A DNA stretch of 64,000 nt, taken from the NCBI RefSeq assembly GCF_024213555.1, contig NZ_JANAVO010000001.1, positions 3,348,001-3,412,000 on the forward strand. The letters run 5' to 3'. The position numbers and the translations under genes were made by a program. Source of the DNA: Allokutzneria sp. A3M-2-11 16. Its GTDB lineage: Bacteria > Actinomycetota > Actinomycetes > Mycobacteriales > Pseudonocardiaceae. The stretch's first letter is position 1; each line of letters begins with the position of its first letter. The notes under the pieces were generated by a model that had not been told where the DNA came from, made no database searches, and saw only the letters and a list, made by a program, of their open reading frames with translations. Below, in pieces: positions 30,996 through 40,274 of the stretch.

Positions 30996-31430
30996 GTGAG
31001 CCCGTTCGTCACCCATGTCCACCCCCGGTGGGCGGACATCGACCTCAACCGCCACGTCAACCACGCGGTGATCGTGACGCTGATGGAGGAAGCGCGCGGG
31101 CACATGCTGTTCACCGACTCCTCGCCCTGGGCCGGGTTCACCGATCCGGCCCGGGGCCTGGTGGTCGCCAAGCTGACCGTGGACTTCCGCGCCCCGCTGG
31201 ACTGGACCGGCAAGCCGGTGCGCGTCCGGGTGGACATCAGCGATCTGCGCCCGGCGACGTTCGTCATGCGCCACACCGTCCACTGTGGACCGTCCGAGGA
31301 GGACAGGATCGCGGCCGTCGGAGAGGTGCTGGTGGCCGGGTTCCACGTGGCCACCACCCGCCCGCGCAGGCTCCGCGACGACGAGCGGGAGTTCCTGGCG
31401 AAGTACGTGGTGGAGGACGTCAATGCCTGA
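30996..31430 (+). CDS. Hot-dog-fold acyl-CoA thioesterase
   Basis: The 144-residue protein belongs to the 4HBT/YbgC-type thioesterases. The opening HPRWADIDLNRHVNHAVIV is the family signature, with the catalytic aspartate in the DID segment. It should hydrolyse a short acyl-CoA, but the substrate is unknown. The GTG start at 30996 has AGGTGG four bases upstream. It corresponds in position to the Rv2475c-type gene of mycobacteria and overlaps the next gene by eight bases. Confidence 0.88.
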   Translation: MSPFVTHVHPRWADIDLNRHVNHAVIVTLMEEARGHMLFTDSSPWAGFTDPARGLVVAKLTVDFRAPLDWTGKPVRVRVDISDLRPATFVMRHTVHCGPSEEDRIAAVGEVLVAGFHVATTRPRRLRDDEREFLAKYVVEDVNA

Positions 31431-32070
31431 GTTGCTCATCGCCGACCGGGACGAGCGCGACGACCTCGGCGCCTTCGTGGCGCGCGCGGTCCGGCTGGAC
31501 ACCGCTGTCCTGGTCCGCCTGCGGACGCGGCCGAGCGCCGACGGCGAACAGTTGCTGGAGGCGTGGGCGTCCACGCCGTTCGACACCCTCGTCACCCGCA
31601 CCGTCCGCGGCCGGGTGGAGCCGGGCGACCTGACGGTCAACGGCAACGAGCTGCTGGCCTCGCTCGCCGTGGTCGGCGGCGAACGGATCGATCCCGGCCC
31701 GCCGCAGGACATCATGTGGCGCTCGGCGCTGCCGCCCGCCACCGGCTGGCTCGCGGTCGACGAGCTGCCCGCGGAGATGGTCTCCGACCTGGCGGATCAG
31801 GGCGTCGCGGTGGCCAAGGAGAACCCGGGCCCGCGCGGCACCCCGCCCGCGTCGCTGCTGGACCAGTCGGTGCTGACGGTCAGCGGATCGGGGCTGGACG
31901 TGAAGATCCCGCTGCGCTGCCTGTTCGCGCTCTCCGGCATGGGTTTCCTGACCAGCCGCCAGGAGGGCGACAAGGTCCGCGTCACCGCCACCGACTCGTG
32001 GCTGCGCCTCGACGCCCGCTTCGGCGCCGTGGTCCGCCGCCGCCACGCCCTCCTCCCCCTCCTCGTCTAG
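31423..32070 (+). CDS. Conserved actinobacterial protein of unknown function
   Basis: The 215-residue product starts at ATG 31423, inside the last codons of the thioesterase gene, so the two are translationally coupled. It has no membrane segment, signal or catalytic motif that I recognise. It sits where the Rv2474c gene lies in M. tuberculosis and is of similar length, so it is a conserved partner of the thioesterase. Its stop is followed after seven bases by a long palindrome that may end transcription. Confidence 0.8.
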   Translation: MPELLIADRDERDDLGAFVARAVRLDTAVLVRLRTRPSADGEQLLEAWASTPFDTLVTRTVRGRVEPGDLTVNGNELLASLAVVGGERIDPGPPQDIMWRSALPPATGWLAVDELPAEMVSDLADQGVAVAKENPGPRGTPPASLLDQSVLTVSGSGLDVKIPLRCLFALSGMGFLTSRQEGDKVRVTATDSWLRLDARFGAVVRRRHALLPLLV

Positions 32071-37500: not shown

Positions 37501-38166
37501 GTGCCAGACCGACAACCGACTACCAAGGGCGCCCCCCTGCGGGTGGCGCCCAGGGTAAAGCCGTGTCCGACAGGGGTGGCGACAAGATCATCCCATGCCG
37601 AATCCGGTGATCCGCGAGGGGTCGACAAGGCCACTGCGGACGGTAAGCCGATCTGGAGCAGACGCAGGGTCCTCCTGCTCAACGCCACCTACGAGCCGCT
37701 CACCGCGCTCCCGCTGCGCCGGGCGATCGTGCTGCTCATCTGCGGCAAGGCCGAGATCGTGCACGGCGACCCCGCCGGCCTGGAGCTGCACTCCGCGAGC
37801 GAGGTCATACTCGTCCCATCGGTGATCAGGCTGAGTACCTTCGTGCGCGTCCCCTACCGGGGGCGCGTTCCCATGACGCGGGCGGCACTGATGTACCGCG
37901 ACCGCTACCGCTGCGCCTACTGCGGCGGCCGGGCCGAGACGATCGACCACGTCGTTCCGCGCAGCAGGGGTGGGCCGCACACCTGGGAGAACTGCGTGGC
38001 CTGCTGCGCCAAGTGCAACCACCGCAAGGCGGACAAGCAGCTCTCCGAGCTGGGCTGGCGGCTGCGGGTGGTCCCGCGCGCTCCGCGCGGGCGGTACTGG
38101 CGGCTGCTCGCGAGCATCTCCGAGACGGATCCGCTCTGGCTGCCCTACCTGGACGAAGCCGCCTGA
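37501..38166 (+). CDS. HNH endonuclease-domain protein (Rv2469c-like)
   Basis: The 221-residue protein carries a C-terminal HNH nuclease fold: CAYCGG, ETIDHVVPRSRGG, WENCVACCAKCNHRKADK. Four cysteines form a probable zinc site and the His in IDH is catalytic. The N-terminal half (VLLLNATYEPL, RAIVLLICGKAEIVH) is typical of a broadly conserved actinobacterial subgroup. The GTG start at 37501 has GGAGGTGG four bases upstream. It is convergent with the GVRIS-repeat gene, leaving nine bases between stops. Its cellular target is unknown; conservation argues for a housekeeping role rather than a homing endonuclease. Confidence 0.9.
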   Translation: MPDRQPTTKGAPLRVAPRVKPCPTGVATRSSHAESGDPRGVDKATADGKPIWSRRRVLLLNATYEPLTALPLRRAIVLLICGKAEIVHGDPAGLELHSASEVILVPSVIRLSTFVRVPYRGRVPMTRAALMYRDRYRCAYCGGRAETIDHVVPRSRGGPHTWENCVACCAKCNHRKADKQLSELGWRLRVVPRAPRGRYWRLLASISETDPLWLPYLDEAA

Positions 38167-38175
38167 GGGGTCGCC

Positions 38176-38454
38176 TCAGGCCGCCAGCGCGGAGATCCGC
38201 ACGCCGCCGCGGCTGATCCGGACGCCTTCCCGGCTGCTGATCCGCACGCCCTCCCGGCTGATCCGAACGCCTTCGCGGGAGCTGATCCGCACACCCGAGC
38301 ACGCGCTGATGCGCACGCCGCCCCGGTTGCTGATCCGCACGCCTTCGCGTGCGCTGATGCGCACGCCCTGGTACGAAGTGCACGCGGAGCTAAAAAGGCC
38401 CTTACCCGGACGGGTGACGTTGTTGCTCTGAGCGGGGATGGTCGAAGTGGACAT
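38176..38454 (-). CDS. Small GVRIS-repeat protein (92 residues), unrecognised
   Basis: The start at 38454 has a strong GGAGGG site five bases upstream. Residues 1-29 form a polar leader-like segment with one cysteine. Residues 30-88 hold eight copies of the pentapeptide GVRIS, separated by two or three residues such as RE, SRE or NRG, and the protein ends ALAA. All base changes among the eight pentapeptide copies are synonymous, so the peptide unit is under selection. The gene is divergent from an MFS transporter and convergent with the HNH gene. I do not recognise the family. It could be a beta-solenoid, a structural or surface peptide, or a multi-core precursor; no modification enzyme is next to it. 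Confidence 0.8.
   Translation of the reverse strand: MSTSTIPAQSNNVTRPGKGLFSSACTSYQGVRISAREGVRISNRGGVRISACSGVRISSREGVRISREGVRISSREGVRISRGGVRISALAA
38191..38367 (-). repeat. In-frame repeat array encoding eight GVRIS units
   Basis: The array spans 177 bases with units of 21 or 24 bases. The core codons vary only at synonymous positions (GGC/GGT, GTG/GTT/GTC, CGC/CGG, AGC/TCC). The irregular period and coding frame distinguish it from a CRISPR array. Confidence 0.9.
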
Positions 38455-38758
38455 GATTGCCCTCCAGCGATCATTGTTCGGATAAGGGGAGATCAGAAAC
38501 GTACGCAAGACCCGGATAGGTGAAAAAGTAGAGCCACGGCGCTCGGAGAACAAGCCGCCAAGCTGACCGCCATTCGCCGCCGTCCGGACCGGGGCCATTC
38601 GGCCGCACGGCGTGGTCTCGTCGAGTGATCTTCGGCAACCGCTCCCAGGACGCGGTCACAAGCGGGTTGACGGTCTCGGACAATGCGGTATCACCGCAGG
38701 TCCGCCGGTGTTCGCGGGGGTTGCTCCGGCCGCGGCGCCCAGGGAGGACACGATCACG
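38455..38758. other. Divergent intergenic region between GVRIS-repeat gene and MFS gene
   Basis: These 304 bases contain the start signals of two divergent genes. Next to the repeat gene there is a comparatively AT-rich patch (38460-38545) likely to hold its promoter, but no box pair is convincing. Nothing else is recognisable. Confidence 0.4.
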
Positions 38759-40012
38759 GTGAGTCGCTCCGACGAGCAGGTGGCCGAGGGCTCCGGCGTG
38801 CGCGGACCCGCGTTCCGGCGACTTTTTTTCGCCTGGTCGGTTTCCCTCGTCGGTGACGGTGTCCGGGCCGCGGCGCTGCCGCTCTACGTCGCGGTCAGCA
38901 CGGGGGACCCGCTGGCCGCCTCCGCGGTCGTCGCGGCCGAACTGCTGCCGTGGCTGTTGGTCGCGCTCCCGGCCGGTGCGCTGGTGGACCGCTGGCGGCC
39001 GAGGGTTGTCGTCCTGACGGCTCACATCGTCCGTGCCGTCTTGACCGCCGTGCTGGCCGTCGTGGTGTTCACCGGCCAGGACACCGTGCTGATCCTCGCC
39101 GTTCTCGCTTTTCTGCTGACCACCGCGGAGACCTTCGCCGACTCGGCGTCGCAGCTGCTCCTCGTGGAGATCGCCGGGCCCGCCGACCTGGACCGCGCCA
39201 ACAGCCGCTTCGTCACGGCCGAGACGATCGGCGTGGACCTCGCCGGACCGCTCGCGGCGAGCCTGCTCTTCGCGTGGGAGCCCGCCGCGTGCTTCGCGCT
39301 CGACGCGCTGTCGTTCGCCATCGCCGCCTGGTACGTCGCGCACGTGCCGGACGTGGTTCCGCACCGCGAGAAGCGGGACGGCGAATCGTTGCGGCTCCAG
39401 GTCGTCGAGGGCGTGCGCTACCTGCTGACCGAACGCTCGTTGCGGGTGCTCGTGCTGGCCGTCGTCATGAGCGCGCTGGCCGCGGCGGCGGTGAACGTGG
39501 TGAGCGCGTTGTTCGCCATCCAGGTCCTGGGCTTCGCACCCGCGCTGGTGCCCACTCTGATGATCACGATGGCGCTGGGCATCCTGGTCGCGGCGCGGCT
39601 GACCCCGGCCCTGGGCGCGCGCGTCGGCGAGGGGCCGCTGATGATCGCTTCCCTGCTGCTCGTCGCCGCGGGCTTCGCCTTGCTGGCCACGGCGGCCGTG
39701 CCGGAGCTGGCCTGGGTCGCGTACTTCGTCACGGGCCTGGGCAGCGGGTGCTGGAACGTCCTTTCGGCGACCCGGCGGCAGCGGCTGACCCCCGGGCACC
39801 TGATGGGCCGGGTCTCCAGCGGCTACCGCGTGCTGGCGTGGGGGCTGATGCCGGTCGGCGCCGCGCTGGCGGGCCCGATCGCGGGCGTGACCTCGCTCGG
39901 GACGGTGCTGCTGGGCGCCGCGGTGATCGTCGCCACGACCGCGGTGGTGCTCGGCGGGCCGCTGGTGCGGACCGGTGGACCTGGCCACGCCTCGCGGGGA
40001 TCGGGCATCTAG
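38759..40012 (+). CDS. Major facilitator superfamily transporter
   Basis: The protein has about 417 residues and about 12 predicted membrane helices. It is of the MFS exporter type often annotated as enterobactin- or macrolide-efflux-like, with FFAWSVSLVGDGVRAAALPLYV at the start (helix 1) and GALVDRWRPRVVV in the loop after helix 2. The GTG start at 38759 follows a GGAGG site by about ten bases; a longer frame extends upstream to 38612. The substrate is unknown. It is divergent from the GVRIS-repeat gene, and the two may share control. Relative to mycobacteria, the pair is inserted in a conserved gene block. Confidence 0.85.
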   Translation: MSRSDEQVAEGSGVRGPAFRRLFFAWSVSLVGDGVRAAALPLYVAVSTGDPLAASAVVAAELLPWLLVALPAGALVDRWRPRVVVLTAHIVRAVLTAVLAVVVFTGQDTVLILAVLAFLLTTAETFADSASQLLLVEIAGPADLDRANSRFVTAETIGVDLAGPLAASLLFAWEPAACFALDALSFAIAAWYVAHVPDVVPHREKRDGESLRLQVVEGVRYLLTERSLRVLVLAVVMSALAAAAVNVVSALFAIQVLGFAPALVPTLMITMALGILVAARLTPALGARVGEGPLMIASLLLVAAGFALLATAAVPELAWVAYFVTGLGSGCWNVLSATRRQRLTPGHLMGRVSSGYRVLAWGLMPVGAALAGPIAGVTSLGTVLLGAAVIVATTAVVLGGPLVRTGGPGHASRGSGI

Positions 40013-40022
40013 AGTACGAGCC

Positions 40023-40274
40023 GTGAACGTCGCGGAGACCCTCCTCGTCTTTGCGCTGATCCCGCTGGCCATCTACGGCGTGATCGCGCTCCTGACGCTG
40101 TGGCCCAAGTTCGCCCGTACCCCGAGGTACCGCCCGGGGCAGGACTGGGACTACGAGCCGGTGTGGTGGACGGCCAACCCCGCCGGGGTGGGTGCGCGTC
40201 CCGCCTCCGCCGCCACCGCCGTGGACGCGCAGCCCGTCCGGACCGCTCGGGGAGGTGCCCGTGGTAGCTGGTGA
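40023..40274 (+). CDS. Small single-helix membrane protein (possibly CtaJ-like)
   Basis: The 83-residue protein has one N-terminal membrane helix (LLVFALIPLAIYGVIALLTLW) listed here as residues about 7-27, followed by RYRPGQDWDYEPVWWTANP and a polar tail. This helix plus an aromatic motif recurs in a small actinobacterial protein family found just before the DUF5130 gene. Some relatives may be annotated as the cytochrome oxidase accessory subunit CtaJ, but I am not sure of that match. The GTG start is at 40023, 11 bases after the MFS gene, and its end overlaps the DUF5130 gene by 14 bases. Confidence 0.75.
   Translation: MNVAETLLVFALIPLAIYGVIALLTLWPKFARTPRYRPGQDWDYEPVWWTANPAGVGARPASAATAVDAQPVRTARGGARGSW

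Follow-up and report, generated by a model that had tools for sequence, protein, structure and literature searches.

The 64,000-nucleotide stretch analysed here, part of contig NZ_JANAVO010000001.1 of Allokutzneria sp. A3M-2-11 16 (hereafter the window, whose own coordinates are used throughout), carries on its minus strand a gene for a small repeat protein, P0001. Its coding sequence (38176..38454, stop included) translates into 92 amino acids (aa) arranged as a leader of 29 residues (38368..38454), an array of eight exact GVRIS units separated by linkers of 3, 3, 3, 3, 2, 3, and 2 residues (38191..38367), and a C-terminal ALAA (38179..38190) identical to the last four residues of the transfer-messenger RNA (tmRNA) tag of the same genome. 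A ribosome binding site, GGAGG (38461..38465, minus strand), lies ahead of the ATG at 38454. Both the translation and this site agree with the first-pass annotation of the open reading frame (ORF), which had described eight exact units, a 29-residue leader, and a strong ribosome binding site. Its statement that the units differ only synonymously likewise held, the eight units having six distinct DNA spellings for one peptide. Searching the genome with P0001 returned one match, indicating a single-copy gene. An antisense, plus-strand reading of the ORF was rejected, as the minus frame holds the ribosome binding site, the start, and the family-wide conservation. An attenuator leader peptide was also rejected: there is no same-strand gene downstream, the next gene being convergent.

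Judging by the sequence comparisons described below, proteins of this type form an undescribed family whose gene occupies one locus in much of Pseudonocardiaceae, bacteria noted for their antibiotic producers, and it is for the protein family and its layout that we claim novelty. The gene stands out for its one locus, the near-perfect selection on a five-residue word, and a promoter-proximal element that is nearly always present once per genome.

The repeated word within and between arrays

A census with the pattern [GS][VIT]R[IV][STNHE], which misses any word outside it, yielded 205 loci at which one word is repeated four or more times in an array. These represent 131 distinct arrays, although one genome can contribute two pieces, as G021 does, and three pairs of distinct arrays have identical last 60 residues. 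Nine word types were found among the 131: GTRVT (58), GVRIS (40), SVRIT (20), GIRVN, GVRVT, and GVRIH (3 each), GTRIT (2), and GIRVT and GVRIE (1 each). The word is uniform inside each genome and differs between clades, and every type follows one scheme of a small residue, a beta-branched residue, Arg, a second beta-branched residue, and a polar residue. Copy number is 5 to 60 in the 130 arrays whose available sequence includes the stop codon, and 2 to 4 in a few reduced loci; block duplication is seen as long exact repeats (120 residues in L202). At the array locus of G374 (L129 / L229) a tiny frame reading GVRIN, GVRIN, GVRID, GVRIN accompanies a diverged promoter element and looks like a shrunken array.

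Among the units of the 131 distinct arrays, 2350 are exact and 50 carry a single-residue change; 102 arrays are free of such one-off units, and one array alone (L013) holds 9 of the 50. Third codon positions account for 26385 of the 30529 differences between exact-peptide units, counted in an earlier set of 85 loci. The proportions of differing synonymous (pS) and nonsynonymous (pN) sites in units are 0.46 and 0.038, giving a pN/pS of 0.083, a value biased downward by the choice of units, which had to be exact or to retain Arg with at most two changes; for three-residue linkers the ratio is 0.65. These counts support the proposal of the first-pass annotation that selection keeps the pentapeptide word at the peptide level, and the codon-position and pN/pS counts rule out a chance origin of the repeats. 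Homogenisation alone is insufficient to account for the uniformity, because synonymous sites inside the units differ to this extent. It is the word and not the period that is kept, since the linkers differ in length and sequence; they consist mostly of G, R, Q, A, S, D, E, and H, and the residues flanking the word are variable.

The repeats are visible in the DNA, and one could suppose that the DNA or RNA repeat, rather than the protein, is functional. We consider this scarcely credible in view of the excess of third-position differences and the low pN/pS of the units. A structured RNA at the locus was ruled out as well, there being no Rfam match at E<=1 within 37900-38900 and no covarying fold in 12 upstream regions.

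The 50 variant units are distributed over word positions 1 to 5 as 8, 8, 11, 19, and 4. In GVRIS, I>V and I>T at position 4 occurred six times each, both above its mutational share (0.023 each). Position 5, which is S, T, N, H, or E between clades, changed inside arrays only by T>V (2), T>M (1), and H>P (1); the exchanges that separate clades are scarce inside arrays, where neither S>T nor T>S was seen at position 5 and neither V>T nor T>V at position 2. L013 (genome G356, which also has two element sites) is the one array rich in variant units (GVRVS, GVRFS, GVRLS, SVRIS) and holds four of the six I>V changes.

Alternating [VIT]-R-[IV]-polar strands could self-stack into a fibre or gel, in which case an array must match itself. 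Such homotypic beta-assembly, which we judge unlikely although it ranks with peptide release as a chief rival of the reading preferred below, would account for the uniformity without a second gene, and it agrees with the residue scheme common to all words, with the linker composition, and with the relative tolerance of I>V at position 4. Stacking should, however, tolerate V/I exchanges, and these are few (8 of 2400 counted units); moreover, some loci have only 2 to 4 units, and linkers of one residue are common in GTRVT arrays. If arrays do self-assemble, the nine words would be as many variants of a single minimal beta motif.

The octad beta-helix of VgrG and gp5 has a fixed 8-residue period. 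Array proteins depart from it: unit spacing differs between orthologs and is mostly 6 to 9 residues, with linkers of 1, 2, 3, 4, and more residues. Spacing is most often 8 in GVRIS and SVRIT arrays, 6 in GTRVT, often 7 in GIRVN and GIRVT, 11 in GVRVT, and mixed elsewhere. The regular beta-solenoid suggested by the first-pass annotation is thus disfavoured, because the spacing is not fixed, and a regular helix like the VgrG/gp5 octad, or a solenoid resembling it, appears very improbable to us. The prevalence of 8-residue spacing in two word types would suit it, as would weak matches to DUF2345, the gp5 trimerisation domain, TssI/VgrG, and tail-fibre and spike entries, but no array protein had a Pfam or NCBIfam match that paired a score over the curated cut-off with a significant stretch. 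DUF2345 on L087 reached a whole-protein score of 38.6 (cut-off 30.7), and Spiralin (L087) and Pirin_C_2 (L089) also passed their whole-protein cut-offs, all without a significant stretch; we read these three as low-complexity matches. Significant stretches were returned for PHROG 18079 on L095 (9.5e-12, two stretches, a family without assigned function), for PHROG 28263, a tail fibre, on L087 (1.7e-5, one stretch), and for NCBIfam NF007410 (16.6, cut-off 300). The filamentous haemagglutinin 20-aa repeat TIGR01731 (15.7, cut-off 18) and the VbhA antitoxin PF18495 (16.1, cut-off 25.9) stayed below threshold, and sequence matches in PDB were weak, including fibres, spikes, and a designed-looking SAR repeat. 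In agreement with the first-pass annotation, which knew of no family with a GVRIS unit, no convincing family for array proteins was found in Pfam, NCBIfam, PHROGs, or PADLOC, and no published description in the open library searched, where relevance was judged by title.

Distribution and gene neighbourhood

Homologues in related strains, on which the first-pass annotation had staked its reading, are widespread, in frame, and variable in repeat number. In G001, a genome of the same genus, the corresponding locus encodes an ortholog with 11 GVRIS units, and a third genome of the genus (G002, in 480 contigs) matched neither the window protein nor the protein of the neighbouring HNH gene. Across the family, sampled as one genome per species, many of them drafts, the window protein found matches at E<=0.01 in 133 of 390 genomes; not every weak match among these was read, and such a search easily misses orthologs with a different word. 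The HNH gene, present at E<=1e-40 in 380 of the 390, therefore served as the landmark for finding arrays. Among named contigs, GVRIS arrays were seen in Saccharopolyspora, Crossiella, and Actinopolyspora, the last placed by NCBI in its own family and order, and SVRIT in Goodfellowiella; one Plantactinospora match consisted of three unrelated-looking VRIS strings.

At the level of the order, matches came from 43 of 397 genomes, including 13 that belong to other families, and among the extra-family matches that were read (L079-L081) only L079 showed a frame. This frame, in G630 of another family of the order, has seven GVRVS-like octad units and is not beside an HNH gene; it is possibly the frame of another repeat gene and was dropped from all later counts. 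Two class-level searches of 168 genomes, with VRI-type and GTRVT words as the only queries, gave matches in 2 (own genome included) and 9 genomes. Inspection of nine loci disclosed unrelated repeats or none in seven and no frame in the output for two (L280, L285), and the element in none. No array was seen at 30 extra-family HNH loci, of which only eight have HNH proteins at least 60% identical and the others may be a different locus. Likewise, nine family loci of g5, g14, g19, g30, g41, g44, and g45 showed no array, although the surroundings in g30 were unmatched and its true locus unseen, so that absence there rests on the family, order, and element searches.

A phage origin of the array gene was rejected, as viral contigs hold hardly any pattern match: searches with three array patterns and with the element found 0, 1, 2, and 0 stretches, each stretch (L234-L236, unread) being one match of a two-unit pattern. 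Plasmids gave four weak matches to the window protein, among them a hypothetical protein of Halocatena salina (NZ_CP096020.1, 20518-20730; 48.6% over 76%) that is probably an unrelated repeat. An automated search for related loci confirmed 0 of 343 stretches, perhaps, we guess, as a result of repeat filtering.

The surroundings were described in 40 regions, each about 14-22 kb long, whose genes were recognised by means of representatives of 25 clusters. An array of at least four units was present in 29 (row count), which is not a frequency, the first 20 regions having been picked by array-search matches. Across much of Pseudonocardiaceae, the array gene sits with the HNH gene on one side and DUF5130-pepN on the other. 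Genes at the locus typically run amylase-type enzyme, truncated globin, MscS-like, [S9 peptidase], HNH, array gene, [MFS], CtaJ-like, DUF5130, PepN, and Rv2466c-like. In the window, profile matches and the neighbourhood map place the convergent HNH endonuclease-family gene at 37501..38166 on the plus strand. The divergent MFS transporter ORF occupies 38612..40012 from its predicted start (plus strand; profile match), and its end is overlapped by a short ORF for a CtaJ-type aa3 cytochrome oxidase subunit (39975-40274, plus strand; 99 bits, cut-off 43). The stops of the HNH and array genes are 9 nt apart (38164-38178), and the sole terminator-like site found near the array gene (38402-38417, plus strand) is inside it; given both, the transcripts of the two genes may overlap.

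DUF5130 and PepN accompany the array in 29/29 loci, S9 peptidase in 24/29, and MFS in 10/29; among the 11 loci where no array was counted, 10 have PepN as well. These 11 regions are g30, g5, g14, g45, g19, g41, g44, three extra-family loci, and g38. The last has a short frame of four GVRIN-like units that fell below the filter of our script and went uncounted, and in the g30 region the HNH gene alone was recognised, so that it is no fair test of array absence. Outside Pseudonocardiaceae, two same-order loci run HNH-DUF5130-pepN without an array gene, and the third is rearranged. The first-pass annotation had viewed the repeat gene and the MFS gene as a pair interrupting a core block. This description fits the repeat gene, which those two extra-family loci lack, and only partly the MFS gene, which adjoins about a third of the arrays and is thus not the constant neighbour about which that annotation had asked. 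Among the recognised genes, none was common to all 29 array loci and missing from array-free loci. Pfam matched all but two of 19 locus proteins (the CtaJ-like protein and 31285-32070).

A tree of PepN and HNH was built for 39 loci (g30 left out, the g38 label set by hand, support values not printed), and in it neighbours share word types. The loci g5, g14, and g45, without a counted array, branch early, while g41, g19, and g44 form a nested array-free clade; GTRVT and GVRIS occur in two clades each. One gain, later loss, and few word switches would fit this tree.

The promoter-proximal element, leader, and tail

A 20-nt promoter-proximal element, TTTCACCTATCCGGGTCTTG (38506..38525, minus strand), lies upstream of the window gene and is conserved across much of the family. 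Its own genome has one site within 3 mismatches of a close variant of the pattern TTTCACCTRTMYGGVYCTTG; that pattern, at up to one mismatch, was found in 269 of 390 family genomes and 35 of 46 genera, as against 10 genomes for the backward control. Reading of the rows gave two sites in G004 and G356 only. Following 40 element sites from g4, g6, g7, g8, g10, and g11 led to an array of at least three copies in 39 cases and to two copies in one. Seven positions are invariant in 44 of 44 upstream regions sharing no more than 80% pairwise identity; each region was positioned on its best match to the element, a procedure that favours its conservation, and the alignment left out four loci (including L049, without the element) and loci with too little upstream DNA.

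The element overlaps TAnnnT, with CTTGT about 17 nt ahead. In the window we read a -10-like hexamer TACTTT (38525..38530) and a -35-like hexamer TTGTTC (38548..38553) with a 17-nt spacer, both on the minus strand. A consensus promoter scan found no promoter upstream of the array gene, and the putative promoter overlapping the element is our own reading. CTTG appears both in the -35-like box and at the element end, about 44 nt apart (38506-38553, minus strand), also in relatives; the pair could be two half-sites of one regulator.

A weak consensus runs through the leaders, whose start codons were picked by Shine-Dalgarno strength: among 69 dissimilar leaders, Q occupies residue 9 in 32 and T residue 14 in 36, and S is at residue 16 in 28 of 67. 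The highest 19-residue hydropathy mean is 0.13-0.98 in the 12 GVRIS-type proteins for which it was computed, and none has a hydrophobic segment of the N-terminal, Sec type.

An LA[AG] ending closes 38 of 130 arrays, and [FYL][ASTV]LA[AG] 29 of 130. By word, LA[AG] is found in 17/20 SVRIT, 14/57 GTRVT, 5/40 GVRIS, 1/2 GTRIT, and 1/3 GVRIH arrays; for comparison, it ends 5 of 251 ORFs predicted mechanically in 21 regions, a set that perhaps includes array ORFs, and related species are not independent. The tmRNA tags end in LAA in 13/13 genomes, and array tails such as RRDDFSLAA and CQSDYALAA resemble the family tags QREFALAA and AAYSLAA. According to PMC7652416, the terminal Ala-Ala matters most for ClpXP, and green fluorescent protein (GFP) with YALAA was degraded whereas GFP with bare LAA was not; PMC3613350 reports that a tag ending in LAA reduced LacZ in M. 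tuberculosis. The ISALAA end of the window protein is a possible degron. Unlike ssrA tags, array tails are encoded in the genome. LA[AG] is missing from 92 of 130 arrays, and in 15 of 40 GVRIS arrays nothing follows the core, so Clp turnover cannot be general.

Possible roles of the array proteins

The layout of a leader followed by many identical cores raised the idea, voiced in the first-pass annotation, of a multicore peptide precursor, matured by leader-directed processing through enzymes encoded elsewhere or by proteolysis freeing the lineage-specific peptide signal in many copies. The layout itself bears this out, the leader having a weak conserved motif, and clade-specific core switching, the ssrA-like tails, and the PepN and S9 peptidase genes at the locus point the same way. 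Nevertheless, PepN is also present at nearly all loci where no array was counted, S9 is not universal, and the residues beside the word vary, leaving no obvious cut site. None of the 19 annotated locus proteins, some from relatives, is a peptide-modifying enzyme by Pfam (or NCBIfam, for a few), genes of a few loci lying outside that set, and no hydrophobic segment was seen in the 12 GVRIS-type proteins noted above. Overall, we find a precursor role rather improbable. Graspetides are formed through Ser/Thr/Lys-Asp/Glu linkages, and among our nine word types only GVRIE has an acid in its core, unlike graspetide cores. Their multicore precursors, as described in PMC8939145, likewise have a leader and then several copies of a short conserved core. 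Kex2-processed fungal repeat proteins and alpha-type pheromone precursors also repeat short cores on one precursor, but these have a secretion signal and dibasic cut sites (PMC7329392), whereas the residues beside the array word vary and the 12 GVRIS-type proteins showed no hydrophobic segment.

From the layout, the selection on the word, its uniformity within genomes and change between clades, the cis element, and the lack of a recognised locus-specific partner, we infer a mechanism. Our tentative preference is that the array protein could be a soluble string of identical ligands inside the cell, recognised by a partner that is matched to the lineage, and could serve as a sponge or scaffold. 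Behind a short leader, the usually 5-60 copies of the word, on free linkers and with an ssrA-like tail in some lineages, would each be a ligand for one cognate partner encoded away from the locus. The intact array would then work as a multivalent sponge or scaffold with a capacity proportional to the number of copies. A promoter or operator of its own would set the level of the protein, tailed arrays would be kept short-lived by Clp proteolysis, and from clade to clade the partner would change along with the word. Should the word be a ligand, the arrays provide nine matched ligand types with which the reader might be found by covariation.

Several observations weigh against a sponge or scaffold of this kind. 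No partner was identified, and the reader is one that we infer. Net charge per unit is not conserved, running from 0.05 in SVRIT through 1.43 in GTRVT to 1.62 in GVRVT, a span that also disfavours a simple polycation role. The I>V change at position 4 makes up 6 of the 50 one-off units against its share of 0.023, so that one conservative change is relatively tolerated, and the occurrence of GTRVT and GVRIS in two clades each could reflect a small set of allowed words and not coevolution with a partner. Arrays without the full element occur in g3, g18, g27, and g38, with diverged forms in g18 and g27, and the frequent lack of an LA[AG] tail, described above, counts against the turnover step.

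A wider version, which we hold to be doubtful, is a clade-wide recognition code of one invariant pentapeptide per lineage, a conserved promoter element, and a coevolving reader, in which a rare switch of the word, made in all copies, would be a lock-and-key change, inside or between cells. The C-terminal domain of RNA polymerase II and other tandem arrays present many near-identical short motifs, in variable number on a flexible chain, that are read by partners. The array proteins differ in being a stand-alone bacterial protein with near-perfect uniformity, clade-specific words, and a reader that is presumed.
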